Of a stretch of 35,732 bases of DNA, positions 1 to 21,368 are shown in pieces. The stretch is taken from IMG/VR virus record IMGVR_UViG_3300034111_000256, positions 1 to 35,732 of that record, one strand, 5' to 3'. Under the pieces are notes generated by a model. The model was not told the origin of the DNA, searched no databases, and saw nothing but the letters and a program-made list of their open reading frames with translations. Each line of letters starts with the position of its first letter. Position 1 is the stretch's first letter. The translations under genes and the position numbers were made by a program. Source of the stretch: a virus.

Positions 1-460
1 GGCGTTGCGGGCTATGCGCTAAGTAAGCGCCGCGTAAAAGATCGCGGCCAAGTTTTGACTCTTCAACGCCAGCTTTAGCGGTAGCTTCGCGGCCTTCGGC
101 GGTCACTTTTTGCACTCGCGGATCCATTAATGCGCGTTCAGTAGCTGTCTGTGCCTGCGAATAGCCGGTGCTGGCTTTCTCAGCTTGGCCTCTGAGGCGC
201 GCTAAATATAGATTTCTTGCATAGTCAGGATCATATTGAAATGCCTGTTGCGCAAATCTTGGATCGTCAAAATTTGGCGTTATACCCCGCAATGCTTGCT
301 CTGCTTGCGCCTTGCGAGCATACTCATCCATCTGCATCTGCGCTAACTGTTGCTGTTGAGCGCGAGCGCCCATCATCTGGTATTGCGCCAGCATGTTCGT
401 AAAGTCAGTGGGCGTGTTCGCTAAAGCGTTGCGCGAAGCTATTGTGTAATCTACTGGCAT
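1..460 (-). CDS. N-terminal part of a large ejection-type virion protein (runs off the left edge)
   Basis: The frame starts with ATG two bases after the stop of the upstream gene and stays open to the window edge, giving 153 visible residues beginning MPVDYTIASRNALANTP. The segment is rich in Gln, Ala and Met (a QQQQ run near residues 36-40) and looks helical, as in proteins packed inside podovirus heads. If the window is a closed circle, the split last codon is completed by the first two minus-strand bases at the right edge (CTG). The frame then continues into the large ORF at 33256-35732 for about 978 residues in total. It follows the ejection-like gene at 463-1704, which suits an internal virion protein. 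No catalytic domain is recognised. The alternative is two unrelated partial genes in a window cut from a longer genome. Confidence 0.8.
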   Translation of the reverse strand, partial: MPVDYTIASRNALANTPTDFTNMLAQYQMMGARAQQQQLAQMQMDEYARKAQAEQALRGITPNFDDPRFAQQAFQYDPDYARNLYLARLRGQAEKASTGYSQAQTATERALMDPRVQKVTAEGREATAKAGVEESKLGRDLLRGAYLAHSPQR

Positions 461-462
461 AT

Positions 463-1704
463 TTAAGTCCTATAGGCTGTTGGCGCGCCTTGAAAACCAG
501 GGCTAAACCCAGCGGCATAAGATGGCATACCGTTTAGATAACCTGCTTGGTTAGCGTATATGGAAGATCTGCCTTGAGGCGCAAAACGATCAGCCATGCC
601 ATATGCCATCATAGCATTAACTGGCGTGTTAAGCGCGCTCTGTAACGCTGACGCGCCGCCCATGTAACCTGAAGCGCGGGCTTGGCCTACATTCTCAATA
701 GCCGAAGCATATGGGTTAGCTGCCGATAAAGCCGTCATTTGAGGACTTGCAAGCCCTGTATACGCGCCAGATATTGTGCCGCCAGCATTAGAAGCTAGAT
801 TACCGAGATTAGCTCCAGCCGTCGTTGCAGCCTGTCCTAAATTAGCGCCAGTATTAAATGCGCCTTGTCCAATGTTACCGCCTGTGGTCAGTGCAGCCTG
901 TCCTAGATTGGCTCCAGTCGTAAATCTATTACCGGCTAATTGATTGCCTGTAGTTCCTGCAAGTTGGGATACTGTGCCAGCGGCCCCTGCGCCTACGCCA
1001 GCAAGATTCTGAAGTCCTTGCGTCGCAGCGGCGCGATTAGCCATAAAGCGGTTGTATGCGTTACTGTATTCTTGGCTTGCTTCGCCTGCCCCAAAACGTG
1101 TGGCTGCTTTTAACGCTGCGCCCGACCCTGCTAATCCGCCCGACCGCGCAGCATTAAGCATTTGCTGTCGGCCTTGTTCCATACGAAACGCATAACCGGG
1201 ATCCATCTGAAGTTCTTGAAGCGTCGGTTGTTGCGTATATTCACCACCTTGACCAAAAAGCGATGCTAAACGATTAGTAGCCCCAGCGCCCGTAGTCGTA
1301 TAAGGCTCTTGAGCTGCTACGCCACGCCCATAAAACTCTCGACCTATATCTTCGCCTTGTTGGGCTTGGCCCAAAAGATCCGCGCGGCCCCTACCATAAT
1401 AATCTGTAAGCGCGCTCTCGCCGCGGCCATAATAATCTTGTATGTCCTGACGGCCTTTGCCATAAAACTCTCTTACGTCGCCAGTGCCTTTATCATAAAA
1501 TTCACGGCTTGCCGCTGCGCCTTTCTCGGCCATCTGGCGCGCTTGCTCAAGCGCTTGTTGTTGAGCGATATAACCCAACATGCCGCTTTGTTGAGCGGCT
1601 TGGGCCTGTGTGCCAGCCGCACGTTGTGAAGCCGCATAGCCAGCCCCGCTACTAAGCGCGCTTGCTGCGGTGCTTCCTAAAAGGGCTAGTGTGAACGGAT
1701 CCAT
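463..1704 (-). CDS. DNA-ejection/transfer-type internal virion protein
   Basis: A 413-residue Ala/Gly/Gln-rich protein. The central segment around residues 168-220 (DPGYAFRMEQGRQQML ... GGLAGSGAALKAA ... QEYSNAYNRF) is typical of phage proteins annotated as DNA transfer or injection proteins, which leave the capsid ahead of the genome. It carries two sets of 11-residue tandem repeats. One set starts REFY/QDYYGRG (residues 67-110, with another copy at 122-132). The other has the form TTGANLGQAAL (residues 262-305). An 11-residue period suits amphipathic helices that touch membrane. It lies directly before the large ejection-like gene, as gp7/gp20/gp16 cluster in P22. The exact equivalence to one of those proteins cannot be assigned from sequence alone. 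Confidence 0.75.
   Translation of the reverse strand: MDPFTLALLGSTAASALSSGAGYAASQRAAGTQAQAAQQSGMLGYIAQQQALEQARQMAEKGAAASREFYDKGTGDVREFYGKGRQDIQDYYGRGESALTDYYGRGRADLLGQAQQGEDIGREFYGRGVAAQEPYTTTGAGATNRLASLFGQGGEYTQQPTLQELQMDPGYAFRMEQGRQQMLNAARSGGLAGSGAALKAATRFGAGEASQEYSNAYNRFMANRAAATQGLQNLAGVGAGAAGTVSQLAGTTGNQLAGNRFTTGANLGQAALTTGGNIGQGAFNTGANLGQAATTAGANLGNLASNAGGTISGAYTGLASPQMTALSAANPYASAIENVGQARASGYMGGASALQSALNTPVNAMMAYGMADRFAPQGRSSIYANQAGYLNGMPSYAAGFSPGFQGAPTAYRT
790..921 (-). repeat. Four in-frame 33-bp repeats in the ejection-type gene
   Basis: Residues 262-305 form four 11-residue units: TTGANLGQAAL, TTGGNIGQGAF, NTGANLGQAAT and TAGANLGNLAS. They are degenerate at the DNA level, so they reflect protein periodicity rather than recent slippage. 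Confidence 0.8.
1375..1506 (-). repeat. Four in-frame 33-bp repeats (REFY/DYYGRG units)
   Basis: Residues 67-110 form four 11-residue units: REFYDKGTGDV, REFYGKGRQDI, QDYYGRGESAL and TDYYGRGRADL. A fifth copy (REFYGRGVAAQ) occurs 11 residues further on. The period matches the second repeat block of the same protein. Confidence 0.8.
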
Positions 1705-1718
1705 AATGCCTCTTTATA

Positions 1719-1985
1719 TCACGAGTTACTTAAAAATCTAACTGTTGGTGCCTGTGCTACCCCGACGACCTCATTACGGAAGGACTCAGTTGCCGCTGCG
1801 CCCTGCCGAACTTCTTTGGCGACCTCGATCTGAAGCATAGGTAGCGCTGCCACAGCGCAAACCCATTCGTCTACTTCTTTGCCCGTGTTGGGGTTTGTGC
1901 CCCGTAACAATGTGAACCACGCGCATTTTAACTGCACGCAGTCTTTCTTAATCAAAGGGCAAAAAGTTCCGTTTTTCAGTTCCAT
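1719..1985 (-). CDS. Small conserved phage protein with four cysteines
   Basis: An 88-residue protein of a type commonly seen next to phage tail genes; its function is not known. Cysteines at positions 9, 16, 21 and 43 could bind a metal, although a reducing-cytosol protein with free cysteines is equally possible. The ATG lies one base past the stop of the upstream fibre gene, behind a weak GAAGAA ribosome-binding site. It sits between the second fibre and the ejection proteins, so a minor virion or assembly role is plausible but unproven. Confidence 0.7.
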   Translation of the reverse strand: MELKNGTFCPLIKKDCVQLKCAWFTLLRGTNPNTGKEVDEWVCAVAALPMLQIEVAKEVRQGAAATESFRNEVVGVAQAPTVRFLSNS

Positions 1986-1986
1986 G

Positions 1987-3147
1987 TTAATTCTTCGTTG
2001 CGATGATTACGTCTACATACTGAACAGCAAGATTGATACTTGGTGCGCTGAAGCCGTGGCTGTGACCGCCGCTGCTGCCGGTATTGCCAATAGAAGTTGA
2101 TGCGCTCAAATTAGCATTTCCTGTGCCTGTGGTGCCTGTCTGATTACCAGTATATGAAGCGCCAACAGCAAGACCACCTGAACCACCAGCGACAATAACG
2201 CCGCCGAATGTATGAGTATGTCCGCTGTCTGATACCGATGTAGACGCGCTATGGTTATGTGAAGGTATATCAGCGGTCGTCAGTGTATAGCTGGCAACAG
2301 TGCCAGTGACAGCTTGAGACGCAAAAGCCGTTGTGAAAGCTACCGAACCGCCTGACGACGCTGCGCCAGATACGACGCGGAGCGCTTTGTTGTCGTGCGT
2401 GGTTGATTTCGTCCAGCCTGTCGGAGCGGTCGTTTGAGCAAACAACATCGCCGTGCCGGACGGTATATTCGCCCATGCGCCGGTAAAGCTAGTCGCCGTA
2501 ACAGATCCAGTAAAGGTAGATCCGCTAGAGTTAATAGTAAGCCGCGTTCCGGCGTTAGTCTTAACCGTAAAATTACGGTCGTCGCTTACATCAAATATAG
2601 AGTCTGTAGAATCCGCAGACATAACTGTTCGAGCCGTGCCGCCAGATGTCGAGATCTGAATAGCGCCGCCAGCTACGTCAATAGCGTTTGCGGGTGTTGC
2701 GGTGCCAATACCTACCTGACCTGTCGTGTCAACGACGAATGGCGATGAGTCAGGATCGGCTGAATCTTGAACTCTGATTGCAGCGCCAGCGCCCGTCTGC
2801 GTAACAAGAAGCGCAGGGCCGGAAGTGTTGGCCGAGATGGTGACGTTACTGGAAAAGACTGGCGACAGAGCCGTCGATGGCGCGGCGATATTATCGACCG
2901 TCCAGATTTCAGTGCCATTGGCGTCGGTTAGTTTAAACTTATAGTTGGCTGATGACAGCCAGATATTAGCTTCGCCACGGGAATCCAAAACAATAGGATT
3001 ACTGTTCGCCGTCGCTGCGGTCGAATCCGTATAGGTCGCTTGCGGCGTGGTCGTGCCAGCTTCATAAGTATAAAGAAAACCGCCAGCAAGCGGTATGCCT
3101 GCGGCGTCAATAAACTGAGCTTTTGCGGTTGGCGTTACGACGGCCAT
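1987..3147 (-). CDS. Tail fibre protein with collar-type C-terminus
   Basis: A 386-residue fibre. The N-terminal 90 residues (AQFIDAAGIPLAGGFLYTYEAGTTTP, quoted in part) match the conserved virion-attachment domain of many podovirus fibres. The middle (residues about 100-215) contains the short beta-helix-like pattern GQVGIGTATP seen in trimeric fibres. The C-terminal part is the phage collar/fibre-tip type: it begins PSGTAMLFAQTTAPTGWTKS and continues with a His-rich HNHSAS/GHTHTF segment, which in related tips coordinates metal along the trimer axis. It likely contacts the host surface. The start abuts the preceding stop, and AGGTG upstream of the ATG acts as ribosome-binding site. A second, larger fibre is encoded at 9891-13100. 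Confidence 0.85.
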   Translation of the reverse strand: MAVVTPTAKAQFIDAAGIPLAGGFLYTYEAGTTTPQATYTDSTAATANSNPIVLDSRGEANIWLSSANYKFKLTDANGTEIWTVDNIAAPSTALSPVFSSNVTISANTSGPALLVTQTGAGAAIRVQDSADPDSSPFVVDTTGQVGIGTATPANAIDVAGGAIQISTSGGTARTVMSADSTDSIFDVSDDRNFTVKTNAGTRLTINSSGSTFTGSVTATSFTGAWANIPSGTAMLFAQTTAPTGWTKSTTHDNKALRVVSGAASSGGSVAFTTAFASQAVTGTVASYTLTTADIPSHNHSASTSVSDSGHTHTFGGVIVAGGSGGLAVGASYTGNQTGTTGTGNANLSASTSIGNTGSSGGHSHGFSAPSINLAVQYVDVIIATKN

Positions 3148-3732
3148 TTAGACACCTACAGAACTTGTTACGGTCAGATTGACCGAGGGGATGGCGGGAA
3201 CAGGACTGGATGCGGCAACTGCGGACAATCTAACACCTGTGTTGTCCGTTGACCACATAATCTCAAAGTAATCGCCTGCGGTGAGGTTTATCACGAAATT
3301 TCGCGCAGCGACAGCGGCAGCGGTAGAACTTGCCGCAACCAGAATTTTAGCGGCTGAAGTAGAAGTAGTGCCATTAACGCGAAGCCAGGTATAAATGTTC
3401 TGCGCCGTGACGGCAGTATTGCTAAGTTGCGCTGTGAACTGGATGTTATAGGTAGCTGTATTATCTACAAAAATCTGTGACGTTGTTGTGCCAACATAAA
3501 CACCATAATTAGATACTGTAGTGTCAAACGTCATGCCGTAGCCGGTATTAATCGCCGCTGCCGTTTGCGTTGCAGAGCTAGAAAAAGAGCCATATCGCCG
3601 CCCCGCTTCGAGGGCAATGTAGGTATTAAAGAACCAACGATACCACGGGCGATTAACGAATCCCGTATTGTCGTCGTTCATTTTAACGCGCGCCGCAGGG
3701 ACTTGTGTGTTGTTATCGACCAGATTAGGCAT
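3148..3732 (-). CDS. Virion protein with a predicted C1q/TNF-like jelly-roll C-terminus
   Basis: A 194-residue protein. The first 40 residues (NRPWYRWFFNTYIALEAG) resemble a short virion-anchoring region. The rest is beta-rich, with the order TQTAA...TFDTT, YNIQFTAQLSN, WLRVNGTTS, NFVINLTAGDYFEIMWS, IPSVNLTVT. That pattern is typical of C1q-like jelly rolls found in phage virion proteins. Such domains form trimers and often decorate tails or bind ligands. It overlaps the gp10-like gene by 8 bases and abuts the fibre gene, so it belongs to the tail group. The fold is inferred from pattern only. Confidence 0.7.
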   Translation of the reverse strand: MPNLVDNNTQVPAARVKMNDDNTGFVNRPWYRWFFNTYIALEAGRRYGSFSSSATQTAAAINTGYGMTFDTTVSNYGVYVGTTTSQIFVDNTATYNIQFTAQLSNTAVTAQNIYTWLRVNGTTSTSAAKILVAASSTAAAVAARNFVINLTAGDYFEIMWSTDNTGVRLSAVAASSPVPAIPSVNLTVTSSVGV

Positions 3733-5506
3733 TGGTCGGACTCGCGTGCAACTCAGCGCCCATGATCGCTATCTGCACAGGATCCGTGCCGGAGATCTCA
3801 TAAACTCTATCGCGCAACTTGAGCGTCATGCCGAGCCGACGCCAGATCGTGCGGTAGCCCGTTTGGCCGATCTGACCCATAGACTTCCAGTGCTCATTCG
3901 ACCATGTGTGACCGCCATCATCAGACCAGCGCAGCATGACCTGCGGATCAGCGCCGATGGTGATCGTGTATTGAGCGTAGTCGCGGATCTTTAAAGCAGA
4001 CCCAGCGCGGTCAAGAATAAAATCGTGTGCGCGATCATAAATATAAATAATATCATTGACTTCCGCCTGACTATACCCTGAAATCCCCACACCGGCCTGA
4101 CAATCAAGCTGAAGACTATGTTGCGCCGAACGGTTTAAATCGTTCTGACCTGTTGGCAGAGCACGCCATGAGCGCAACCATTTTTGCGTCGTGCCAGCCT
4201 CAGAGTAGACAGTCGGATCATAGGCAAATATCTCGCCTGTGCGGTAGTCGCCGATAACGATCTCGTTGTTGTAGTTCATCTGACAATTACCGCGAGTGCG
4301 GGTAAATGCGTTATTTTCCCAACCAGCGCGCTCATGCCATGCGCCAGTCGCCACGTCATAGACCCATGTCGTGTTAGCGTTCGGGAAGTTCAAAACGTAA
4401 AAACTATGGCCGTCTTGCTGATAGGTATATCCTACAGCGTCGGCTAGTGTTGAGTATTGTTGGATCTGCCACTCAACCGCATGGGTCGAGACGCGCTCGC
4501 CAGAGTAGCCTTTTGAACGGTAGACGATACCATTACCGCGCGCGTCAGTGCCAAGCCAGAATAGGCCGTTGTCGAGCTTGGCGACTGAATAAGCCGCAAG
4601 ACAACCTATTTCGTTAAATGCGCCTTGGATACGCGCTAACGGAAAATCGGGCAAACCGGCGTCATACCAGACTTCGACTGAGTTTGTTCCAAATAGCCAT
4701 ACTTCGCGATGGTCTACGATTAGCGTAACAAGATTGTCTGGCGAACCTTCAGCGCTGGCGAAGTAAAGTGGATCGACCGTCGTGCTTGTTGAATCCAAAA
4801 CCCAGAAAATCTGACTGTCTGGTTGGTTATAGACAAACCAACCATCCAGAAATCCGCATCCGACAGCGCCTGCGAAGGGCGAAGTAAGCTGCGTTAAGAA
4901 AGGTGTAAAGGTCAGCGTGACGCCAGTATTGGTAGCCGTAGCTGCGGCAGACAACACGAATGTCGTGGGGTTGGTTACGCTGGCTACCGTTGCGCCGGTT
5001 GGGATACCTGTGCCGGACACTGGCTGACCAGGGTAAAGATATGTTGTATCGCCGCCCGATACGGTCGTGCTTGCGTTCGTGGTATTAAAGGGCAGCTCTT
5101 GATAGGTGCTATTATAAATGTAGCCGTTCGTTCCGGCGGCAATAAACATCTGCCGACCATTGTCGGTCATGTTGACTTGACTTGATCCTGAGACGGTTCC
5201 TATCGCGGTATAGTTCCAGTCAGAATCAATACGGTATAGGGTCGTGGCTGATACCGCATAGCCATAGGATGTCGTTGCTGATTCGCCTGGGGCTGGGTCT
5301 ATCGTGTCGCTTGTAAACGTCCAAAGTCCACGAACCGGCCCTGCGCCTAATGTCTGAAGAAAGCGCAGTCCTGGCGCGCGTTGTAACCAAGCAGCCTGCT
5401 TACCGCCTTCAGGCACAACTTCAGGGAACAGGTTAACCATGCGGTTGTCAGCCGCATTTGGGCTGCGGGTGACATAACTAGAGCCAAGAATAGGCGTTGC
5501 GACCAT
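3725..5506 (-). CDS. P22 gp10-like tail hub / packaged-DNA stabilisation protein
   Basis: A 593-residue protein of the P22 gp10 family, which closes the portal vertex after packaging and holds the spikes. The N-terminus (residues 11-60, RSPNAADNRMVNLFPEVVPE then APGLRFLQTLG), the central FGTNSVEVWYDAG and the C-terminal VMLRWSDDGGHTWSNEHW followed by a GYRTIWRRLG segment all fit this beta-propeller family. P22 gp10 has 472 residues. Part of the extra length is an inserted segment near residues 141-201 with the phage Ig-like or adhesive pattern VSGTGIPTGATVASV. Its start overlaps the gp4-like stop as TGATG, so the two are probably coupled. Confidence in the family is high. Confidence 0.88.
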   Translation of the reverse strand: MVATPILGSSYVTRSPNAADNRMVNLFPEVVPEGGKQAAWLQRAPGLRFLQTLGAGPVRGLWTFTSDTIDPAPGESATTSYGYAVSATTLYRIDSDWNYTAIGTVSGSSQVNMTDNGRQMFIAAGTNGYIYNSTYQELPFNTTNASTTVSGGDTTYLYPGQPVSGTGIPTGATVASVTNPTTFVLSAAATATNTGVTLTFTPFLTQLTSPFAGAVGCGFLDGWFVYNQPDSQIFWVLDSTSTTVDPLYFASAEGSPDNLVTLIVDHREVWLFGTNSVEVWYDAGLPDFPLARIQGAFNEIGCLAAYSVAKLDNGLFWLGTDARGNGIVYRSKGYSGERVSTHAVEWQIQQYSTLADAVGYTYQQDGHSFYVLNFPNANTTWVYDVATGAWHERAGWENNAFTRTRGNCQMNYNNEIVIGDYRTGEIFAYDPTVYSEAGTTQKWLRSWRALPTGQNDLNRSAQHSLQLDCQAGVGISGYSQAEVNDIIYIYDRAHDFILDRAGSALKIRDYAQYTITIGADPQVMLRWSDDGGHTWSNEHWKSMGQIGQTGYRTIWRRLGMTLKLRDRVYEISGTDPVQIAIMGAELHASPTNA

Positions 5507-6222
5507 CAGTAGTTGCCCGCATAGATGTTATAGCGCTGACGTGTGCCGACAATGCTGTAAGGCAGAGCCATGATGTCGTCAGGGTTATTGATGCGCTTCA
5601 GATTGCGCTTGCTATACATGGCGATCCGGCTGACCGTAGGCGATGGCTCGACGCCAAACTCAGGGGCCAGCTCGCAAGCCAGATTGTAGCGGAACGCCCG
5701 CAGATACCCAGGCGGGAAAAGGATCGCCGTTGCTAGATTAGCAGGCTGCGATAGCTTTTCGACTGAAATGAAATGCCATTCTAACAGTCTTAAAGGGACT
5801 GGATAGATGACCATATCAATGTTTGGATAGGTCATATTGGTGAATATGACCTGTGGGTAAGTAGACGTTACGGTCTTAACCGCAATGCCGTCATACTGTT
5901 GCTGATTGATAAATTTAATGCCGTAAGAGACGTTAGTCTGTGGATCGCGGAAGTAAGTCGCGTCATCCAGCAATACAGGACGTAAACCCACAAAGTCGCC
6001 GGTCGGCCCCAGCGTGCGGTTGCGCTCGCCTGACGGCCAATTGAATACTTGATCTTGAGTTGAGAACACCGACAATCGTTCGGTATTCCAACTGTCGATC
6101 ATCTGGTTCAGAGCAAATAGCGCGTCATTCGCTGTCTCGGACGAGGGCGTTTCGCCTTCGGCTAACACTCCGAGGAGCCTCAACGCTCCCACTATCTGAT
6201 CGTAGCAACTGTATGTCGTCAT
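5506..6222 (-). CDS. P22 gp4-like head-tail adaptor protein
   Basis: This 238-residue protein sits before the gp10-like gene, as in P22, where gp4 binds the portal ring and receives gp10. The stretch AYDQ-like YDQIVGALRLLGVLAEGE, then DALFALNQMIDSWNTERL, is the helical core of this family; a beta-rich middle and YLRAFRYNLACELAPEFG follow. I place the start at the ATG encoding MTTYSCYDQ because GGGAGAGG lies 10 bases upstream. A longer in-frame version would start 30 bases earlier, inside the preceding gene. Even with the shorter start, the first 98 bases overlap the upstream small gene in another frame. Confidence 0.85.
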   Translation of the reverse strand: MTTYSCYDQIVGALRLLGVLAEGETPSSETANDALFALNQMIDSWNTERLSVFSTQDQVFNWPSGERNRTLGPTGDFVGLRPVLLDDATYFRDPQTNVSYGIKFINQQQYDGIAVKTVTSTYPQVIFTNMTYPNIDMVIYPVPLRLLEWHFISVEKLSQPANLATAILFPPGYLRAFRYNLACELAPEFGVEPSPTVSRIAMYSKRNLKRINNPDDIMALPYSIVGTRQRYNIYAGNY

Positions 6223-6328
6223 TTGGGTCGAACCTCTCCCAGCCGTTCTCAATATCGGCTTCGGCCTCTAGGTCGAGACACGCCACTTTAACCCCATGTT
6301 CGGGGTGTTTCAAATAAATAACAGCCAT
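6125..6328 (-). CDS. Small conserved phage protein overlapping the gp4-like gene
   Basis: A 67-residue protein. Its first 38 residues (MAVIYLKHPEHGVKVACLDL, then EAEADIENGWERFDP) are of a type common in phage head modules: a short beta-alpha unit ending in NGW and a hydrophobic strand. The last 29 residues lie entirely over the start of the gp4-like gene in another frame and look like read-through sequence, so the functional part is probably the N-terminal half. No function is known. It follows a hairpin that separates it from the decoration-like gene. Confidence 0.65.
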   Translation of the reverse strand: MAVIYLKHPEHGVKVACLDLEAEADIENGWERFDPNDDIQLLRSDSGSVEAPRSVSRRRNALVRDSE

Positions 6329-6350
6329 TGGTTACTTTCTAAAGAAATAC

Positions 6351-6368
6351 AGCGGCCCGTAGGCCGCT
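6351..6368 (-). terminator. Hairpin with cUACGg tetraloop, terminator-like
   Basis: Read on the minus strand, a perfect 7-bp stem AGCGGCC/GGCCGCT encloses the loop TACG closed by C-G, the classic UNCG super-stable tetraloop. GTATTTCTTT follows. The weak U tract suggests partial termination or an mRNA-stabilising end between the gene at 6374-6913 and its downstream neighbour. Confidence 0.65.
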
Positions 6369-6373
6369 ATATA

Positions 6374-6913
6374 TTAAGATACCGAAAATTCCAGATTATA
6401 AACAGGGAATGTAACGGTGTTAGCAAGCGTTCCAGAAACCGTCGCGCGGATACGCAAACGATCACCATCAGCAACAACCAGATTGGCTGCGGTGCCGTTG
6501 AGCGTCAGTGTGCGTTTGCCATTAGCAACAATCGCTGAACCGCCCGTTGCTTTGGTCGTGTTAGCGTCAGTAGCCGCCAACATAGCCGCTGAACCAGCGC
6601 CAGCCTGACCAAGATTGGTAATGCTGAACGTGATGTAGTTCGTGTCACTAGTAGCCAGAGCGTCTACGCCAGAAAAGAGCGCCGTAGTAAGAACACCCGC
6701 AGAGGCCACGATGACAAAAACATCGTTGGTTCCGCCGGTGGTCGTAGCAATCGTCGCGCCTTGCTGACTCTCAGAATAGCCGCTGTAGATATTAGAGAGA
6801 ACTTTGGTTGTAGAGTCCAGCGTCGCTCCAGTGATCGTCGCGCCCGTAATGGTTGTGCCAGCTACGAGTTCAGGATCAGAAAAAGCAACACCAACTGCTT
6901 TGGTGTTTGGCAT
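6374..6913 (-). CDS. Beta-rich head protein, possible decoration protein
   Basis: A 179-residue protein dominated by Thr, Ala, Gly and Val with regular short strands (TTITGATITGATLDSTTKV, then ITFSITNLGQAGAGSAAML). There are no Cys or Trp residues. It is the second of two similar-sized beta-rich genes after the capsid gene, both bounded by hairpins, a place where head decoration or other abundant virion proteins are usually encoded. No specific family is recognised, so decoration is an inference from position and composition. Confidence 0.65.
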   Translation of the reverse strand: MPNTKAVGVAFSDPELVAGTTITGATITGATLDSTTKVLSNIYSGYSESQQGATIATTTGGTNDVFVIVASAGVLTTALFSGVDALATSDTNYITFSITNLGQAGAGSAAMLAATDANTTKATGGSAIVANGKRTLTLNGTAANLVVADGDRLRIRATVSGTLANTVTFPVYNLEFSVS

Positions 6914-6926
6914 GGAGATGTCCTCT

Positions 6927-6950
6927 AAAAAAGAGTGGGCTTGCGCCCAC
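6927..6950 (-). terminator. Intrinsic terminator with GNRA loop
   Basis: On the minus strand a perfect 6-bp stem GTGGGC/GCCCAC encloses GCAA, a GNRA tetraloop closed by C-G, and is followed by TCTTTTTT. This is a convincing rho-independent terminator just past the gene at 6956-7441. Incomplete termination would give a step in expression, since the next gene on the same strand starts only 14 bases further on. Confidence 0.8.
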
Positions 6951-6955
6951 CCTAG

Positions 6956-7441
6956 TTATGCGATGCGGTAGATCGAGTATGCAGCCGTGCCGGTTTTACG
7001 GAAGCGGAACGTAGCCGATGCTGGGTTTGTTGGGGCCGCAGCGGCTGCGTCAACAACAATAGCCTGACCAACAATCGAATTGCCCGTGCCAGCGCCGAAC
7101 GTCACATCATTCGCGGCGTTGTCGCCAAGATTGATGATATGAACGTCAAAGCCTGAATTGACTTTGAGGCTAGGGAAAGCCGCATCAATCAACGCGCCTG
7201 TTGGGAACGTGTAGGTGCCAGCGTCCGTGCCGCCAGAATCAACGGTAATGATGCCGTTGGCAAGGTTGTCAACGGTAACCGTGACCGTAGCGCCCGTAAG
7301 AGCGGAAGGCGCAGGCTGCGCGAAGATAAGAGGCTCAGTTAGATTGCCTGCCGAAAACTGATAGCCGCCTGTGCCCTGCGGAATAGCGCCGTAAGGGCCA
7401 AACGTCTCAAGCGGATAAGCCGCGTTCTGAGTAGTTGTCAT
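6956..7441 (-). CDS. Beta-rich head protein downstream of capsid
   Basis: A 161-residue protein immediately downstream of the capsid gene. It has an extended N-terminal arm (residues 1-35, TFGPYGAIPQGTGGYQFSAG), then alternating hydrophobic strands with Thr, Val, Asn and Gly (GATVTVTVDNLANGIITVDS). A C-terminal strand pair follows (ATFRFRKTGTAAYSIYRIA). This resembles small head-fibre or decoration proteins, but no defined family is recognised. Hairpins lie on both sides of the gene, so it probably forms its own abundant transcript segment. Confidence 0.65.
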   Translation of the reverse strand: MTTTQNAAYPLETFGPYGAIPQGTGGYQFSAGNLTEPLIFAQPAPSALTGATVTVTVDNLANGIITVDSGGTDAGTYTFPTGALIDAAFPSLKVNSGFDVHIINLGDNAANDVTFGAGTGNSIVGQAIVVDAAAAAPTNPASATFRFRKTGTAAYSIYRIA

Positions 7442-7463
7442 GGGTTAAACTCCAAGAATGATG

Positions 7464-7487
7464 AGAAAAGGACGGCCCCGTAGGGCC
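7464..7487 (-). terminator. Hairpin with cUACGg tetraloop after the capsid gene
   Basis: On the minus strand the stem GGCCC/GGGCC encloses TACG, again a C-G-closed UNCG-type loop, followed by GTCCTTTTCTC. The stem is short and the U tract imperfect, so partial termination or 3' protection of the capsid mRNA is more likely than full termination. Confidence 0.55.
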
Positions 7488-7495
7488 ATCGCTTA

Positions 7496-8692
7496 TTAGC
7501 CCCAAAGGCGAACGGCCATCTGCGGACGAATCACGCTGTAGCCATAAAGCACGTCAATACGGCAAGGCAGACGGTCGTTGTTGATGTCATACTGACGAAC
7601 AACGCGGAGCGAAATGCCATTGTGAACCTGACGGCTAGCCATATCGACACCCTGCGGAAGCAGAAGGTCGGCGGTGGCGAAGCTGATTGCGTCACGATGA
7701 TAGATCAAGTTCTGTGGATACTGCGTAGAAGCAGCGCCGAGGAACGTGACAGCCGCGCCGGAAGCAGGCAGAGCGTCAACTGTAGCGAGAGCCTGAGTAG
7801 CCGAATACATCGCAGGAACAGTGACCGTAGCGGTTGTTGACGCCGTAACGTCAGCAAGAGCAACGAACTGATACAGCGAGCCGGTTGACTCACGGGTCTG
7901 TGGGTTGACAGCGTAGACGTTAGCAATGGTGAACACGTCGCCAGCTTTGATCGTTGTGGTCGTAAGACCAGTCAGAACAACGGTCGTTGAACCTTCAGCC
8001 GTGACAGTCGCGTTAACCGTAACAGTGCCTGCACGCGAGCCAGTCGTAAACTGCTTGATTGACTGAGACATATTCAGCTCGTCGTAGCCGAGGATGCCTT
8101 CACCAAACATGCCGTTCTTAAACTGCTTCGAGATAGCTGAAACAGGGTTGAACAGACCTTTCATGCCTTCGATCAACGCAGCGTTAGCGGCTGGGTTAAC
8201 AGTGGCATAACGAGGCGACATGACCGCAGCGTTCTCGTTGAGCTTTTGCTGGGCTTGCAACAGAACGAGCGACGTAGCAGGCGTGGTGCCTGGCGTGCCG
8301 ACTGAGTTGCCGATGTATTTGAAGCTGTTTGCAACGTCGGCGTCGATAGAAGACGCAAGCTGCGAAATACGAGGCTTCAGAACACGTTCAGCGAAGTCGT
8401 CCAACTGCATCGTGAGTTCGGCGGTCGTGAAGTTCACGCCGATGTGCTTCTGGCTGGAGACAGTGAGCGTGGTGTATTGCTCGTTGTCGTCCTGAACCTG
8501 AAGGGCAGCGCCGTCCGTGACCAACGCGCGGTCGGGAAGACGGATGCGGAGTGTCGAGCCAATCTTAGCGCCTTCTACAGCGAAAGAGTCGTCATATTGG
8601 CGGTTGACAGTACGCGTCAAGACTAAGGAGTTTTCGAGGATTTCCAAAGCCTTGCGGGTAATCATGTCAATAGTGAGAATTGAGTTTGACAT
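7496..8692 (-). CDS. Major capsid protein, P22 coat (gp5) family
   Basis: A 398-residue protein that forms the icosahedral shell. The start MSNSILTIDMITRKALEILENS, followed by LVLTRTVNRQYDDSF (each quoted in part), is characteristic of P22-type HK97-fold coat proteins. So are LRIRLPDRALVTDG, the spine-helix region TTAELTMQLDDFAERVLKP, and the late LPQGVDMASRQVHNGISLRV. Residues 215-320 are Thr/Val-rich and correspond in position to the insertion domain of P22 coat (430 residues). Scaffold precedes it by seven bases, giving the normal portal-scaffold-coat order apart from the inserted fibre cassette. Confidence 0.9.
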   Translation of the reverse strand: MSNSILTIDMITRKALEILENSLVLTRTVNRQYDDSFAVEGAKIGSTLRIRLPDRALVTDGAALQVQDDNEQYTTLTVSSQKHIGVNFTTAELTMQLDDFAERVLKPRISQLASSIDADVANSFKYIGNSVGTPGTTPATSLVLLQAQQKLNENAAVMSPRYATVNPAANAALIEGMKGLFNPVSAISKQFKNGMFGEGILGYDELNMSQSIKQFTTGSRAGTVTVNATVTAEGSTTVVLTGLTTTTIKAGDVFTIANVYAVNPQTRESTGSLYQFVALADVTASTTATVTVPAMYSATQALATVDALPASGAAVTFLGAASTQYPQNLIYHRDAISFATADLLLPQGVDMASRQVHNGISLRVVRQYDINNDRLPCRIDVLYGYSVIRPQMAVRLWG

Positions 8693-8699
8693 AACCTAA

Positions 8700-9479
8700 T
8701 TACCTACGGTTTTGCGCTTCCCATTTCTTGATCTGTCGCAACCGTTCGGCTTCAATCCATTCTGACGTTGACATCGACTTTGTAGACCGTGGGTCTGTCG
8801 TATCAAATCTAGGGCCGGAGCTTGACCGAGTAGCCGTGACAGGAGCAAGAGGAGCTGGCGCAGTTGAAGTGCGTTTTGTCGGCGGATCTGCGACCAGTTT
8901 GGCCTCAAGTCTACCGATCTCCTTTGCCTGCAAAATTGGCGGCAAATTGGCGATCCGTTGAGCCTCTTTCGGATTGGAGCCTAAGTGATAGATCACTTCG
9001 GGGCCAATGTCTGAAGCCTGGATAGCTTGAGCCATATAGTCCGTTACTGGGAGGTTCGGATTATACGCGACTTGTTCAAAGTCATCGTATCTATCGCGGG
9101 CTTCCTCTTCACGATCCTTATATGAGTCAAGCAGAGCTGCCTGTTGTCTTGCGGACTCTCGTCGTGCCAGAAGCTCTTGAGCTTTTTGCTCCGCTAATGC
9201 TTCCGCATAGGCTTGAGCGTTCTCAAAATCATCTGGCGCGGGTGGAGGTGCGACCGGCTGTCTAGCCTGTTGCTCCGCAAGCCGTTGGGCTTGATCTCTT
9301 TCCCATTTGCGCTGTTCTCTTGCGAGGCGTTTGCCTACAATAGCGTCCAACTCTTCTTGAGAGAACGATTTTGTAGACTGTTGTTCCTCCGGCGTCGTCT
9401 CAACAGATTCAGGTGCCGCCGTGGCTTCCTGTTCCGGCGCGGGGCTGATCTCCGCTACAGCCTGTTCTTCGTCGCTCAA
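8700..9479 (-). CDS. Scaffolding protein
   Basis: A 259-residue, highly charged, Glu/Gln/Ala/Arg-rich protein with long predicted helices and coiled coil (residues 40-135, AIVGKRLAREQRKWERDQAQ onward) and a flexible Pro-rich linker. The C-terminus is basic (IEAERLRQIKKWEAQNRR). Basic helical C-termini bind coat in P22-type scaffolds. It lies directly upstream of the capsid gene. The start codon is TTG, supported by AGGAAG five bases upstream; no in-frame ATG comes earlier. The assignment rests on composition and position. Confidence 0.85.
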   Translation of the reverse strand: MSDEEQAVAEISPAPEQEATAAPESVETTPEEQQSTKSFSQEELDAIVGKRLAREQRKWERDQAQRLAEQQARQPVAPPPAPDDFENAQAYAEALAEQKAQELLARRESARQQAALLDSYKDREEEARDRYDDFEQVAYNPNLPVTDYMAQAIQASDIGPEVIYHLGSNPKEAQRIANLPPILQAKEIGRLEAKLVADPPTKRTSTAPAPLAPVTATRSSSGPRFDTTDPRSTKSMSTSEWIEAERLRQIKKWEAQNRR

Positions 9480-9529
9480 GGCAACTTCCTTTCTGACCTA
9501 GCTATCCGGCTAGTCGGTAAATCGTATTA

Positions 9530-9664
9530 TTACTCTTTAGGCGTCTGATCGTCAACGGCCTGTTTCTGTATCTCTGCAATCAATTCAATTACTTCAACGT
9601 AAGGCCGCTGACTTAAAACGTTGAGGATGTAAGTCCATTGCTGCGGTGTCAGTTCTATTTTCAT
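9530..9664 (-). CDS. Small conserved phage protein (44 residues)
   Basis: A short gene reading MKIELTPQQWTYILNVLSQR, then PYVEVIELIAEIQKQ. Its ATG overlaps the TGA of the preceding gene as ATGA. It is two amphipathic helices, of a type often found beside phage structural genes and left without a function. Its overlap and sensible amino-acid pattern argue for a real gene. It ends 50 bases before the scaffold start. Confidence 0.65.
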   Translation of the reverse strand: MKIELTPQQWTYILNVLSQRPYVEVIELIAEIQKQAVDDQTPKE

Positions 9665-9891
9665 ATACCTAATAGCTCTTTCAATTCGTCAACCGTTAAA
9701 CCAGCAGCCTCAAGTTTTTCTTGCGGCGTTAGCGGAGCGGGTTCTGGTGGCGGGACGTATGGGTTAGGCGTGTTGCCGTCAGCAAGCCAAGCTAGATAGG
9801 CTTGGTAGTCGCCGTTGGCTTTGTCGGCGGGAATAGCTGCACCGTCGGCATCGCGTGAAACTGAGCTATTCAATGTAAGTGTATAGGTCAT
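9661..9891 (-). CDS. Small fibre-accessory protein
   Basis: A 76-residue protein. It contains DGAAIPADKANGDYQAYLAW, a pattern seen in phage proteins encoded just after tail-fibre genes, then a Pro-rich linker (PNPYVPPPEPAPL) and a short helical end (LTPQEKLEAAGLTVDELKEL). Its ATG overlaps the fibre stop as TAATG, so it is likely translated with the fibre. A fibre-assembly or attachment role is inferred from position; no fold is recognised. Confidence 0.65.
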   Translation of the reverse strand: MTYTLTLNSSVSRDADGAAIPADKANGDYQAYLAWLADGNTPNPYVPPPEPAPLTPQEKLEAAGLTVDELKELLGI

Positions 9892-12800
9892 TATGACAGT
9901 TCCGCAGACATTGTTATGTAATTTGAGTTACTTCCTGGGACAGCTAAGGTTCCGGGTCTTGATGTAGTAAGACCAGCAAAATTAGGTACTCCTAGAAGAA
10001 GTATTGCATATGCGGTGGAGAAATTTGACCCTAGCCCCGTAGCTGATTGATTTGCGTTATTAGTGCCATCACCTTGAAAATTTAAAACTCCTGTTTGCCC
10101 AAGTGTGGGCGCAACCCTCATGGTTGGTGATATTGTCCCCCAAGCATTCACAGTTGTTGCTGAAGGAGTTGCGCCAGAAAGTTGAGCTGTTATCTGATAA
10201 TAGCGTTGACACTGTGCCAATTGGTCGGAATATATCTGCCGCTCATACGGCGTTGATATTGAACCGACTTCTAGCTGCACATTATTCACGTCCCAAGTGC
10301 CGCTTGTCTGAGCGCCGACAGTGAACAGGATTTCGATGCCGGTAGTAGCCGCAGCGGGGATGGTAATATTCGTGGTATAGCGTGTAAGCGTGCTAGTTAC
10401 CGTGAAAGTGCCGGTTGCTATCTGTGTTTTAGTTGGCGTGCCGATAGTGCCGAATGTGTCGGCTGTTGTGGCATAACTGGCTGTCCACGTAACAGTTGTC
10501 AAAAGGGAATTGGCAAGTTCGACAGAAAGTGTGGCCGTCTGACCTGCTAAATCATAACTGTTAAGCTGTTCGATCCGTTGACCAACGCCAACTGCCGTAA
10601 CAGAAGCCGCACCTGTAATTTGAAGAAGGTTTTTATTACTACCTGTTCCTGCTACTTGAGCCGCTGTGACGTTTGCGCCAGTGCTATAAACAAACCATCT
10701 ATCGACGCAAGGATACCCCGTAGAAGCTGTCGGAACAGCCGTTCCCGCCGTAACTGTAGCTGATGTAGCTCTCTGAGCTATATACATATTGCCGTTTATC
10801 AGTCGGTTTCTCTTGAAGCTGCTACCCATCGCCAACGTGCCAGTCATCGCCATATTTCCGGCGGTAATAGGCGTGGTCGGCGAGAAGGTCGCGCTGTTTA
10901 GCGTCACGTTGTTTTGCGGCGTGAAGCGCATGTCTTCCGTGCCGTTAGTGGTGACAGCTATTGTGTCAGCGGCAGGAAAATAAATACCCGTATTAGTATC
11001 GCCAGTCGTCGTAATGCCCGGCGCGCTGACTGTGCCAGCCGGGAAAATAGCCGAGGTCGTGAACGTAGGCGACGTGCCAAACACAAGCGCGCCCGTGCCA
11101 GTCTCGTCTGTTACAGCAGCGGCTAAATTGGCTGAAGACGGCGTGCCAAGGAATGTTAGGATTCCAGAAGCAGTTGTTGTTGTAGAAGGCGCTACTCCTG
11201 CGCCGCCGCCAACAACTAAAGCATTAGCTGCTAAGGCTGATGATGACGCTAATGTGCCTGTAGCACTGTAATAAAGAACGCCGCCTGACGTGCCGGACGT
11301 TAGACCTGTGCCGCCACGATTTACAGCAACCGCAACACCGTTCCACGTTGCAGAGGTAATTGAGCCTGGATAATCTAATGTATTTGTTGACCAGCTTACA
11401 TTAGCTGGCGCTTGGAAATGAGGTTCCCACGTTCCCGAAGATGTCCCGTTAGCAATTAATACAATTGTTCCGTAAGCGCCCGATTGGAACGTCGCAATTG
11501 TCGTTGCGCTAGTATTCTTTACAACGATAGTTCCGCTAGTCTGATTATTATTGAATGAAAATATTGCGCCTAATGGCAATGTGGTTGCATCGGGAAGCGT
11601 GAATGTTTCACCACCAGACCCCGTAACGACATTAACTGGTGTAGAAGCTGCGGTTAATGTTATTGTTCCACCAGTAGCCGCTGTGCTTGTTGTTCCTGCA
11701 AAAAAAGCATTTGATGTTATGTTAACATTAGCGTCTCTTAATACAACGCTACTTGCAACAGTCGTTGCGCTTGTTGGATATTCACCTAAGACGCCAGCAT
11801 TATCGTAAAGAACGCGGCCAGACGTGCCGCCGGAAATAGCTGTTGAGCCAACAGTTAAGCCAGACGCTATTGTCGTCCAAGATGTGTTGCCCGACCCATC
11901 AGTTGTCAGAGCTTGACCGTTAGTTCCCGCCGATGTTGGCAGCGTCAGCGACCAAGCGGCGCTGTTATTGCCTGACTTTAAACTGACCGCATTAGCGCTG
12001 GCTGAATTATACAGTTTAAATGTGCCGGTCGTTGTAGAGGCGACGCCAAGACCGAGCGTGTAGGTTGTTTTGTCGTAGGTAAACGCCGCCGCGCCGCCAA
12101 AAGTAGCGGAATCATTAAACTGAACCTGCGTGTTAGAGCCACCAGGCGAGCCGCCACCACCACCGCCACCTGCCGCCCATGACAGAACGCCGTTCGTGTC
12201 AGTCTGGAGATAGTAACCGTTGACAGGCGCAGCCGCTGGGAAGGTCAGCGTGTAATTAGCTGCGGTAGAGTTAGACGATTGCAGCGTAACAGTATTGGCG
12301 CTTGTATTAGCAAGAACCAGTGTGCCGCGTGTCGAACTGGCCGTGCCAAATGTGACCTGAGACGTAAAGGTTGGGCTGGTAGCAAATACTAGAGGCCCAG
12401 ATCCCGTCTCATCCGTGACAGCCGATGCGAGATTCGCCGATGATGGCGTCGCCAAGAACGTCGCAATACCTGTCCCAAGGCCGCTAACGCCTGTGCTAAT
12501 AGGTAATCCCGTCGCATTTGTCAGAGTTCCTGACGATGGCGTGCCTAACGCGCCGCCATTAACAACGAAAGCGCCCGCAGAGCCAACATTAACAGCCAGG
12601 GCCGTCGAGACGCCTGTGCCAAGACCACTTACACCCGTGGAGATCGGCAAACCAGTAGCATTTGTCAGCGTAGCCGACGACGGTGTGCCAAGCGCAGGGG
12701 TGATAAGCGTCGGTGAGGACGCCAATACGATAGCGCCAGAGCCAGTTGTCGTGTTGCCGAGCGCTGTGACCGTGCCACTCGTTGGGAACGTCAGCGTGGT

Positions 12801-13100
12801 CGTGCCGGTGAACGTGAAGGTGCTCGAATAAGCGCCAGAAGTAATGAATGTTGAGTTGTCCGCCAGCGTTAGCGTCGCGCCAGTGGCCGGAGCCGTCATC
12901 GTAATCTTATTGACAGTGCCGTTTAGGGCTAAATTACCGCTTTTATCAACGACAAAAGAGGCCGTTGTGGCCCCTGTAACCGTCAGATTCAGCAAATTAG
13001 ATGACGCACTGGACGCCGTGTTGGTAACGGCTAATTTAATGCCGTTCCATGTAGTTGCAGCATCATTCCATGTGTCACTAAGATTATAAATAAAGGCCAT
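9891..13100 (-). CDS. Large tail fibre / receptor-binding protein
   Basis: A 1069-residue fibre. Residues about 1-110 are a virion-proximal part, with a WNDAATTWNGIKLAVTNTAS start typical of phage fibres. The shaft (about 110-780) consists of degenerate Thr/Ser/Gly repeats with units such as ATLTNATGLPISTGVSGLGT (copies near residues 136-163 and 184-211). Paired FLATPSSANLASAVTDETG-type blocks and a Gly7 linker (GGGGGGGSPGGSN) also occur. From about residue 775 (KRNRLINGNMYIAQR) a distinct domain begins with a carbohydrate-binding-like beta pattern (CVDRWFVYS, LEVGSISTPYERQ, QCQRYYQI), probably the receptor-binding tip. It is placed between portal-side genes and scaffold rather than with the other tail genes. 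Confidence 0.87.
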   Translation of the reverse strand: MAFIYNLSDTWNDAATTWNGIKLAVTNTASSASSNLLNLTVTGATTASFVVDKSGNLALNGTVNKITMTAPATGATLTLADNSTFITSGAYSSTFTFTGTTTLTFPTSGTVTALGNTTTGSGAIVLASSPTLITPALGTPSSATLTNATGLPISTGVSGLGTGVSTALAVNVGSAGAFVVNGGALGTPSSGTLTNATGLPISTGVSGLGTGIATFLATPSSANLASAVTDETGSGPLVFATSPTFTSQVTFGTASSTRGTLVLANTSANTVTLQSSNSTAANYTLTFPAAAPVNGYYLQTDTNGVLSWAAGGGGGGGSPGGSNTQVQFNDSATFGGAAAFTYDKTTYTLGLGVASTTTGTFKLYNSASANAVSLKSGNNSAAWSLTLPTSAGTNGQALTTDGSGNTSWTTIASGLTVGSTAISGGTSGRVLYDNAGVLGEYPTSATTVASSVVLRDANVNITSNAFFAGTTSTAATGGTITLTAASTPVNVVTGSGGETFTLPDATTLPLGAIFSFNNNQTSGTIVVKNTSATTIATFQSGAYGTIVLIANGTSSGTWEPHFQAPANVSWSTNTLDYPGSITSATWNGVAVAVNRGGTGLTSGTSGGVLYYSATGTLASSSALAANALVVGGGAGVAPSTTTTASGILTFLGTPSSANLAAAVTDETGTGALVFGTSPTFTTSAIFPAGTVSAPGITTTGDTNTGIYFPAADTIAVTTNGTEDMRFTPQNNVTLNSATFSPTTPITAGNMAMTGTLAMGSSFKRNRLINGNMYIAQRATSATVTAGTAVPTASTGYPCVDRWFVYSTGANVTAAQVAGTGSNKNLLQITGAASVTAVGVGQRIEQLNSYDLAGQTATLSVELANSLLTTVTWTASYATTADTFGTIGTPTKTQIATGTFTVTSTLTRYTTNITIPAAATTGIEILFTVGAQTSGTWDVNNVQLEVGSISTPYERQIYSDQLAQCQRYYQITAQLSGATPSATTVNAWGTISPTMRVAPTLGQTGVLNFQGDGTNNANQSATGLGSNFSTAYAILLLGVPNFAGLTTSRPGTLAVPGSNSNYITMSAELS
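12468..12695 (-). repeat. Duplicated shaft unit in the large fibre
   Basis: The segment covers two near-identical protein units 48 residues apart, each reading LGTPSS(A/G)TLTNATGLPI followed by STGVSGLGTG. The DNA of the two copies differs at many third positions, so the duplication is old or selection keeps only the protein pattern. Confidence 0.75.
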
Positions 13101-13105
13101 TTAGG

Positions 13106-13375
13106 TCACTCGTAGAAGATCGTCACATTCGGATTTGTGCCGCCTAAGACAACATAAAGACCCTTGCTTAACGTGACACCTTCAGGCGCAAACAGATAAT
13201 TGTTTGGAACTGCGCTCGTAAAAGTCGAGATAACAACAGGATCTGAAGTCGAAGCCGTCGCTGAATCGTAAACTGCGATGGTTGGCGATGAGCCGGAGCT
13301 AACAAAAACGCCTTTAACCTTGGCAAGCCCTATTTTAACTTGCGAAGTGGCCGTAAGATTTAGAGCATATGCCAT
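13106..13375 (-). CDS. Small beta-rich virion-type protein
   Basis: An 89-residue, strand-rich protein (LNLTATSQVKIGLAKVKGVF, then PTIAVYDSATAS, GVTLSKGLYVVLGGTNPNVT). It is a small beta-sandwich-like unit as found beside phage fibre or decoration genes. It precedes the large fibre by 5 bases and probably belongs to the same cassette. No family can be named. Confidence 0.65.
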   Translation of the reverse strand: MAYALNLTATSQVKIGLAKVKGVFVSSGSSPTIAVYDSATASTSDPVVISTFTSAVPNNYLFAPEGVTLSKGLYVVLGGTNPNVTIFYE

Positions 13376-13382
13376 GATTTCC

Positions 13383-15874: not shown

Positions 15875-16016
15875 TTGATTTCATACCCTTCTTAGAGGCC
15901 GCACGTTTTGTGGCGTAGGCGATTGCAACGGCCTGCTTCTGGGGCTTGCCAGCCTTCATTTCAGCCTTGATGTTCTTACGCATGGCGTTCTTAGATGATG
16001 ACTTAACTAACGGCAT
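15861..16016 (-). CDS. Lysine-rich small phage protein (51 residues), DUF6496-like
   Basis: A short basic protein beginning MPLVKSSSKNAMRKNIKAEM, with KAGKPQKQAVAIAYATKRAA following. This pattern is common in phage genomes and is annotated, to my recollection, as DUF6496. Its function is unknown; the high Lys content suggests nucleic-acid contact. The ATG overlaps the preceding stop as TAATG, and its end overlaps the portal start. Confidence 0.75.
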   Translation of the reverse strand: MPLVKSSSKNAMRKNIKAEMKAGKPQKQAVAIAYATKRAASKKGMKSSGCK

Positions 16017-21337: not shown

Positions 21338-21368
21338 TTGGGGACGTGTTGACCTCCCCTAGACTTGG

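Follow-up and report, generated by a model that had tools for sequence, protein, structure and literature searches.

Tetraloop hairpins at three successive gene boundaries behind the coat gene of a P22-coat podovirus and its relatives

Introduction

The three hairpins that stand behind the coat gene and the two next genes of a P22-coat podovirus are real, conserved elements operating at the level of RNA. The window analysed here, a stretch of 35,732 bases from an IMG/VR virus record, was classed as a P22-coat podovirus, and its minus strand carries structural genes of the P22 type (terminase, portal, scaffold, coat, adaptor and head closure). The kind of element is already known, since phage P22 has an annotated stem-loop at the boundary behind its coat gene; what is added is the array of three boundaries, the preference for UNCG loops shared by a large set of uncultured phages and the link with accessory-gene cassettes. 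No paper identifiable as describing a three-boundary array was found in the literature searched, with subscription papers mostly outside it.

As a kind of element the hairpin is ordinary. The relatives of the window vary the stem, loop, spacing and U-tract of a single RNA element in 135 distinct natural versions, spread over three fixed boundaries. This large set can be used to ask how phages make capsid and tail proteins in very different quantities from one late transcript, and whether the distance from the stop codon tunes terminator strength. Through the comparison, the stem-loop of P22, which is only sparsely annotated, is also connected with an element that is widely conserved.

Genes around the hairpins

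Downstream (3') of the coat gene, the window encodes gene A, gene B, a doubtful small ORF and the head-tail adaptor, in this order. The features are listed below in the direction of transcription.

7496-8692, minus strand: major capsid (P22-type coat) gene, 398 aa; Pfam PF11651 P22_CoatProtein, 1.4e-44
7471-7490, minus strand: hairpin T1, 5 nt 3' of the coat stop; 8 bp; C(UACG)G loop; tail CTTTTCTC
6956-7441, minus strand: gene A, 161 aa, beta-rich, probable capsid spike or decoration protein from a predicted fold match
6932-6953, minus strand: hairpin T2, 2 nt 3' of the gene A stop; 9 bp; C(GCAA)G loop
6374-6913, minus strand: gene B, 179 aa, accessory protein; alignment of 32 relatives
6347-6372, minus strand: hairpin T3, 1 nt 3' of the gene B stop; 11 bp; C(UACG)G loop
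6125-6328, minus strand: small ORF, 67 aa, 3' of T3, of uncertain reality since it overlaps the adaptor gene
5506-6222, minus strand: head-tail adaptor gene, 238 aa from an internal ATG; PHROG matches of the longer ORF

An earlier note on this DNA, made from the letters alone, had taken the gene ahead of the first hairpin for a capsid gene, and the Pfam match to P22_CoatProtein (1.4e-44) together with a match to phrog_283, major head protein (3.3e-79), bears this out. It had also called the two following genes beta-rich. For gene A this is supported by a fold match to a phage capsid spike, whereas for gene B it amounts to a low-confidence prediction only.

The AlphaFold2 model of gene A has a mean pLDDT of 82.9 and is confident from residue 41 on, except for residues 131-140. 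In Foldseek it hit a capsid spike, that of Pseudomonas phage Pa223 (E 8.9e-5; TM-scores only 0.38/0.23), for which VIA gave Z 9.3 over 92 residues at 2.2 A; one domain of a phage tailspike was also matched (Z 8.8). Because of these matches to spike and tailspike, the gene A product is probably a virion surface protein. Searches of gene A against PHROG and Pfam matched no family, and a blastp relative of it is present in 76/77 loci, the window itself included, among the matches listed. The gene A model (6956-7441, minus strand) also matches predicted proteins of giant viruses in BFVD (Marseillevirus LCMAC102/103 and Hyperionvirus, 20-31% identity), hinting at a virion-surface domain of wide distribution.

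Gene B matched no family in PHROG and is predicted to be beta-rich in a model of low confidence (mean pLDDT 63.8). Its N-terminus (MPNTKAVGVAFSDPEL, the first ~17 residues) is nearly invariant across 32 relatives and the remainder falls into several unlike types, an arrangement that suggests an anchored protein with an exchangeable outer part. Small ORFs of a size like that of the doubtful one occupy the position behind T3 in many relatives. The longer adaptor ORF (5506-6252) matches phrog_12985 (5.4e-43) and phrog_637 Ad3 (1.1e-7).

Three hairpins in the window

Read on the mRNA strand, T1 (7490-7471) is GATGGCCC(UACG)GGGCCGUC; T2 (6953-6932) is AGGGUGGGC(GCAA)GCCCACUCU, then UUUUU, its U-tract extending to the ribosome-binding site of gene B; and T3 (6372-6347) is AUAUAGCGGCC(UACG)GGCCGCUGUAU, with the tail TTCTTTAG behind the full stem. 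On that strand, all three are extra-stable tetraloop hairpins whose 4-nt loop, of the UNCG or GNRA class, is closed by a C-G pair. The earlier note had reported exactly such hairpins after the capsid gene and the two next genes, two with C(UACG)G loops (T1 and T3) and one with C(GCAA)G (T2), on the coding strand, here the minus strand; the span that it outlined, 6351-7487, is the right region although it cuts a few bases off T1 and T3.

Their presence, well above chance, is confirmed. T1-T3 are the sole UNCG/GNRA hairpins with at least 7 bp and at least 5 G-C pairs on either strand of the whole 35.7 kb, against a mean of 0.46 (maximum 4) in 400 dinucleotide shuffles of the window; with a stricter threshold of 8 bp and 6 G-C pairs, the shuffles average 0.095 (maximum 2). 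Ranked by pairs and G-C pairs, they are also the top three terminator-like sites on the minus strand of window positions 1-18000. The number of terminator-like sites on both strands of this same part is not above chance (22 vs 18.4, sd 4.7), and Rfam 15, at the gathering score, gave 0 matches in the window. Elsewhere, the plus strand carries a strong terminator-like hairpin at 21366-21393 (12 pairs, TAAC loop, TTTTT) behind the ORF 20927-21271 of that strand.

Conservation among relatives

Relatives were gathered as 83 loci, comprising the best 80 of at least 600 IMG/VR coat-protein matches, MW202483, the lake phage DSL-LC05 (OR003940) and the window; being the best 80 of at least 600 matches, the IMG/VR loci are biased to close relatives. 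The main text of the DSL-LC05 paper mentions no terminator, hairpin or stem-loop (PMC10611076). Four boundaries were considered, coat/A (B1), A/B (B2), B/next gene (B3) and the following one (B4). Among these best 80 of at least 600 matches and the 3 added loci, repeats included, a hairpin is found at B1 in 68/79 loci, at B2 in 59/75 and at B3 in 64/71, and at B4 in only 4/69. The window itself has none at B4, behind the head-tail adaptor gene. Among the matches listed, 71 loci present all three boundaries: a hairpin occupies every boundary in 42 of these, two boundaries in 25 and one in 4, and no locus lacks hairpins altogether.

A few loci needed separate treatment. B1 was not callable in four of the 83 (L034, L055, L057, L076); by eye, the first two have a hairpin there, L057 has none and L076 has unlike sequence. 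L079, whose G-U-containing stem falls below threshold, was counted as lacking the B1 hairpin in the figure of 68/79 and scored as present in the tree count described below. Gene starts in the relatives were set by a simple rule and may be wrong in places, hence the stem-to-start distances of 79-130 nt at B3. Repeats were kept in the counts 68/79, 59/75, 64/71, 4/69, 141/156 and 123/140 and were collapsed within each boundary for the counts of loops, covariation and terminator scores.

Once repeats are collapsed, the matches listed contain 46 (B1), 45 (B2) and 44 (B3) distinct hairpins, making 135. Loops of the UNCG class cap 35, 30 and 27 of them, respectively (92/135), and GNRA loops 2, 4 and 0 (6/135). 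Among the same matches, UNCG loops are closed by C-G in 123/140 cases, repeats included. The claim that the stablest RNA tetraloops are used thus holds as a preference, and not for the 37/135 distinct boundary hairpins with loops other than UNCG or GNRA. A second recurring loop, the 7-nt CUAAUCA, replaces UNCG at B3 in eight loci (L026, L028, L043, L053, L072, L073, L077, L079), and L052 carries a 7-nt CUAAACA loop at both B2 and B3. Found in several outer relatives, this 7-nt class could be a U-turn loop.

A sigma-70-like site at the end of gene B (CTAACA-17-TATAAT, 6423-6395, minus strand; 10-of-12, 22 nt upstream of T3) was rejected as a general part of the T3 region. Of the 64 B3 hairpins, it precedes only those of the window, L002 (100% identical), L007, L009 and L018, all with a gene B of the same type as the window; an identical T3 is found without it in L003, L006 and L082, and L060 and L064 have a different 10-of-12 sigma-70-like site before their B3 hairpin.

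Orientation, stability and covariation

With a threshold of at least 6 bp and at least 5 G-C pairs, the 705 kb of loci among the matches listed contain 156 UNCG/GNRA hairpins on the coding strand, of which 141 are located at B1-B3; two of the 15 counted elsewhere (L010, L055) sit at uncalled boundaries. Reverse-facing hairpins of this type number none at B1-B3 and 9 elsewhere in the same 705 kb. The folding energies of T1, T2 and T3 are -13.9, -16.2 and -17.6 kcal/mol on the coding strand and -10.2, -11.4 and -13.6 kcal/mol on its complement. The P22 stem is not more stable on the coding strand (-10.9 vs -11.4 kcal/mol).

Covariation was examined in alignments of 47, 42 and 30 distinct 22-mers at B1, B2 and B3 among the matches listed. 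Paired cells amount to 95.7, 97.6 and 97.9%, vs 62.6, 63.7 and 67.7% after re-dealing of the 3' letters, in alignments that contain only hairpins with 4-nt loops taken from the stem search, so that pairing is favoured by construction. The informative part is the variety of pair types at most positions. The covariation scores of 0.795, 0.876 and 0.756 (B1-B3) compare with 0.187, 0.203 and 0.175 in shuffles, 0/500 of which reached them, and slid pairings give at most 0.332. Simply counting the pairs in which both partners have changed (8, 8 and 6 of 8) says less, since 100, 81 and 16 of 500 shuffles reach that count. The checks put forward with the first description, conservation of loops and covariation of stems in relatives, have thus turned out in its favour: position, loop class, orientation and stem pairing are kept, and covariation is strong (0.756-0.876 vs 0.175-0.203). 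Stems being rewritten in a compensatory fashion while UNCG loops mostly persist and face the coding strand, the comparison points to selection acting on the mRNA.

Terminator-like features and spacing from the stop codon

Each of T1-T3 combines a G-C-rich stem and a short loop on the transcribed strand behind a gene, as an intrinsic terminator does. The U-tract behind the stem is clear for T2 (TTTTTT, at the best-scoring stem), fair for T3 (TTTCTTT) and weak for T1 (CTTTTCTC). A terminator score d was computed with a formula of the d'Aubenton-Carafa type, using the best stem truncation for test and control stems alike. With values of +30.4 and +13.4, T2 and T3 score as good intrinsic terminators; T1, at -10.1, scores as a poor one. 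Among the matches listed, d is positive for 15/46 (B1), 30/45 (B2) and 17/44 (B3) distinct hairpins, that is 62/135 vs 0/346 intragenic control stems, and 73/135 lie below the threshold.

The 8 nt behind the last G-C pair contain 3.0-5.8 T, five of six groups having at least 4.1, when 2.6 of 8 would be expected from the gap background of 32% T. The low value belongs to the inner-clade B3 hairpins (3.0 of 8, n=13), near background, with some tails like GCCCTTACCA. Four genomes (L029, L046, L049, L062) have 11-12 bp G-C stems at B2 and no U-tract, so termination is not the whole story everywhere. Leaky terminators of varied strength fit these data better than uniformly strong ones, and a stabilising role is also possible.

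The stem starts 1-9 nt past the coat stop (median 5) at B1, 0-16 nt past the stop at B2 and 1-28 nt at B3 (median 4 at both) among the matches listed. Measurements in E. coli found almost complete repression of a terminator placed only a few bp past a gene under translation (PMC4824070). With so short a spacing from stop to stem, translating ribosomes are expected, on that E. coli precedent, to suppress termination at T1-T3; if the host resembles E. coli, a ribosome that closely follows the polymerase would keep these hairpins open. In another study, strong terminators yielded 2.2 times the transcript of weak ones (PMC11696848).

Spacing and score appear to vary together among more distant phages. 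Stems 11-20 nt from the stop have positive d in BA3, D478, VvAW1, PBR31, PAE2 and EBPR podovirus 1, with CV-1-33 (16 nt) and phiAX1 (12 nt, a weak hairpin) as exceptions; stems at 2-5 nt have negative d in MW202674, MW202557, MW202573 and P26218, P22 (5 nt) being positive. This link is a lead, short of a result. Within the relatives of the window, the correlation between B1 spacing and U-tract (Spearman -0.59, 46 distinct hairpins) ignores kinship and is suggestive only.

Proposed role and alternatives

In our estimation, T1-T3 probably function as leaky terminators and 3'-end caps that lower expression from the coat and spike genes to the low-copy tail genes. Our inferences extend to a single transcript, to partial termination that ribosomes would gate, to protection of the ends from decay, and to copy numbers and an effect on ratios. 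One late transcript would run through scaffold, coat, A, B and the tail genes, each hairpin being an intercistronic 3'-end element that would form in the mRNA just past a stop codon. RNA polymerase would stop in a fraction of its passes at the U-rich stretch, clear at T2 and T3 and weak at T1, and the transcript end left behind, with the extra-stable tetraloop stem as a cap, would resist 3'-to-5' decay. The remaining polymerases would continue into the next gene. In this way more transcripts would contain coat, then A (the probable capsid spike), then B than would reach the head-tail adaptor and the tail genes behind it, whose products would be needed in few copies. Because the stem starts only 1-5 nt past the stop, read-through is expected to depend on ribosomes: the one finishing the upstream gene would cover the stem base, and read-through would rise if translation keeps pace with the polymerase.

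The suggestion that the hairpins are mRNA ends setting protein ratios therefore fares unevenly. The terminator-like T2 and T3 and the conservation of the array favour it, but T1 makes a poor terminator by score; this, the dispensable identity of the loop and the short stop-to-stem spacing leave the suggestion plausible with other readings remaining. The score of T1 and those of the 73/135 distinct hairpins under the threshold speak against leaky termination, as do the low T content of inner-clade B3 hairpins, the B2 stems lacking a U-tract, the repression described in E. coli, the 3/9 strong B1 hairpins in contig relatives of 68-82% coat identity, the ease with which shuffles reach the count of doubly changed pairs and the P22 stem, which gains no stability on its coding strand. 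The annotated stem-loop of P22, the T7 terminator Tphi behind the capsid gene and the higher transcript yield of strong terminators speak for it.

There is a lesser but real chance that the hairpins are pure mRNA stabilisers: transcription would not stop, a long transcript would be cut elsewhere, and the stems would block 3'-to-5' exonucleases and give the coat and spike segments a longer life than the remainder. The U-tract is indeed less strictly conserved than stem, loop class and position, G-C-rich stems with no U-tract behind them occur at B1 or B2 in several relatives, and a stem close to the stop codon (median 4-5 nt) leaves a short unprotected 3' tail. However, this leaves aside the enrichment of T behind the stems in five of six groups and the 62/135 distinct hairpins scoring as terminators vs 0/346 intragenic controls.

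Leaky termination could also be extended. On a more speculative view, which we hold to be rather doubtful, accessory capsid genes of this uncultured P22-coat group would travel as units of a gene plus its 3' tetraloop hairpin, and the hairpin would be a portable ribosome-gated valve as well as a seam for exchange. A finishing ribosome would keep the hairpin open while translation of coat and spike keeps pace; the hairpin would close when translation lags, sparing the tail genes.

Possible exchange of accessory genes and rejected alternatives

When identity to the window was inspected by eye at 50-nt intervals, 8/13 relatives (L003, L004, L005, L006, L007, L011, L018, L082) showed a sharp change at T2 or T3 or next to one of them. 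On this basis, exchange of accessory genes seems to occur, with joints close to the hairpins or at the N-terminus of gene B. It is nevertheless quite unlikely that marking, or helping to recombine, exchangeable accessory-head genes is what the hairpins are for, with effects on expression being secondary.

Several observations besides these joints would suit such a function. B1 gaps without a hairpin measure 26-31 nt in 10/11 cases, the eleventh being L079, vs a median of 54 nt with a hairpin, and B2 gaps without one 10-15 nt vs a median of 42 nt; hairpin and spacer are therefore gained and lost together, as a unit of ~25 nt, at B1 and B2. On a quick coat-protein tree of 78 rows, 23/75 of whose inner branches are poorly supported, the hairpin is gained or lost at least 5 times at B1, 7 at B2 and 4 at B3, and the inner 5 bp of the first stem show 20 sequence states and at least 21 changes. 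In the outer relatives, stems are more alike within a genome than between genomes (0.643 vs 0.534 for B1/B2, 0.607 vs 0.517 for B2/B3, 0.511 vs 0.501 for B1/B3), in comparisons that ignore relatedness.

Other findings weigh against it. The inner clade has no such likeness of stems within genomes, and the sharing of loops between boundaries (21/44, 13/43 and 16/50; p 0.37-0.50) is at the level of shuffles. Homogenisation of the hairpins within a genome was rejected, the likeness being restricted to outer relatives, absent in the inner clade and computed with kinship ignored. Moreover, the left joint of gene B is often the conserved N-terminal coding stretch and not a hairpin, and recombination explains neither the facing of the loops on one strand nor the compensatory changes of the stems.

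Stem-loops located a few nucleotides past a stop codon can stimulate recoding in other viruses, and those behind the coat gene might by analogy promote read-through or frameshifting into an extended coat protein. We regard this as highly improbable, and it was rejected on the shortness of the runs past the coat stop: in the 79 loci among the matches listed, the median run to the next stop is 13, 14 and 16 codons in the three frames (minima 0, 2 and 1; maxima 171, 89 and 94), too short and variable for any extension length to be kept, and the window has an immediate second stop, TAATAA.

A structure at the level of DNA, such as a cruciform or a binding or packaging site, for which the inverted repeats are suitably symmetric, has a negligible likelihood and was rejected on loop orientation, since about half of the loops should point the opposite way if only DNA mattered, whereas every boundary site with a UNCG/GNRA loop among the matches listed has it on the coding strand. 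T1-T3 (unlike the P22 stem) are also more stable on that strand and, according to PMC2864571, UUCG loops stabilise RNA when TTCG has no particular stabilising effect on DNA.

Distant relatives and known systems

In P22 (NC_002371), a putative stem-loop is annotated after coat gene 5 at 6102-6119, with the remark that its location is similar to that of stem-loops of phage HK97 and phage lambda. It reads GGGGC(UGCG)GCCCC followed by TTTCTTTA, with d +10.3, and like T1 it lies at the B1 boundary, 5 nt past the stop, as a short G-C stem with a UNCG loop and a T-rich tail. The two coat proteins belong to one Pfam family, of which P22 is the namesake. In P22, however, the coat gene is followed by one small ORF (orf69) and the adaptor gene, with one annotated hairpin there, whereas the window has two extra genes, A and B, each with its own hairpin behind it.

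Fourteen distant annotated P22-coat phages were hand-picked for variety out of 39 farther records. Reading of the folds reveals a post-coat hairpin in 12/14, four with UUCG loops, and an unbroken stem of -10 kcal/mol or lower is present in 11/14. By its position directly behind the coat gene, T1 fits the post-coat stem-loop class of lambdoid and P22-type phages.

Bacterial genome contigs provided 57 further loci, 51 of which were counted after removal of 5 incomplete matches and 1 repeat. Where coat identity is 39-48%, 29/42 relatives have a hairpin within 75 nt of the stop that reaches -10 kcal/mol or lower, and in 28/42 it beats the best of every control window inside the coat gene; their loops include only 7 UNCG and 2 GNRA. 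Nine contig relatives with 68-82% coat identity have a strong B1 hairpin in only 3/9 and a hairpin at some boundary in 6/9, one of the three without (L109) ending before its second gap is visible. Post-coat hairpins are thus common among P22-coat phages and, with few UNCG loops in the distant relatives, the strong UNCG preference is a trait of the window's wider clade.

Comparable elements are found outside the P22-coat phages. Phage T7 (NC_001604) has an annotated terminator, Tphi, between capsid gene 10 and the tail genes, a placement resembling that of the window's hairpins. Tphi is leaky and acts on the phage's own RNA polymerase; unlike the window's array, it is a single, differently built stem, and no phage RNA polymerase was found among 19 window proteins scanned against PHROGs. 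Tuerk et al. are said to have described, in 1988, C(UUCG)G hairpins in the intercistronic regions of phage T4 and in bacterial terminators, which would resemble those of the window as extra-stable tetraloops on the mRNA strand between genes.

Two of the loci deserve mention. Rhizorhabdus histidinilytica UM2 harbours, in a 769-kb contig (L102, NZ_FUYM01000001.1), a relative whose coat is 81% identical and which has a hairpin after gene A; the element is a probable prophage and a possible culturable model. The coat gene of MW202674.1 (L087, 3001-4516) is split in the annotation into two parts that flank a small ORF, possibly reflecting an insertion, an intron or an assembly error.
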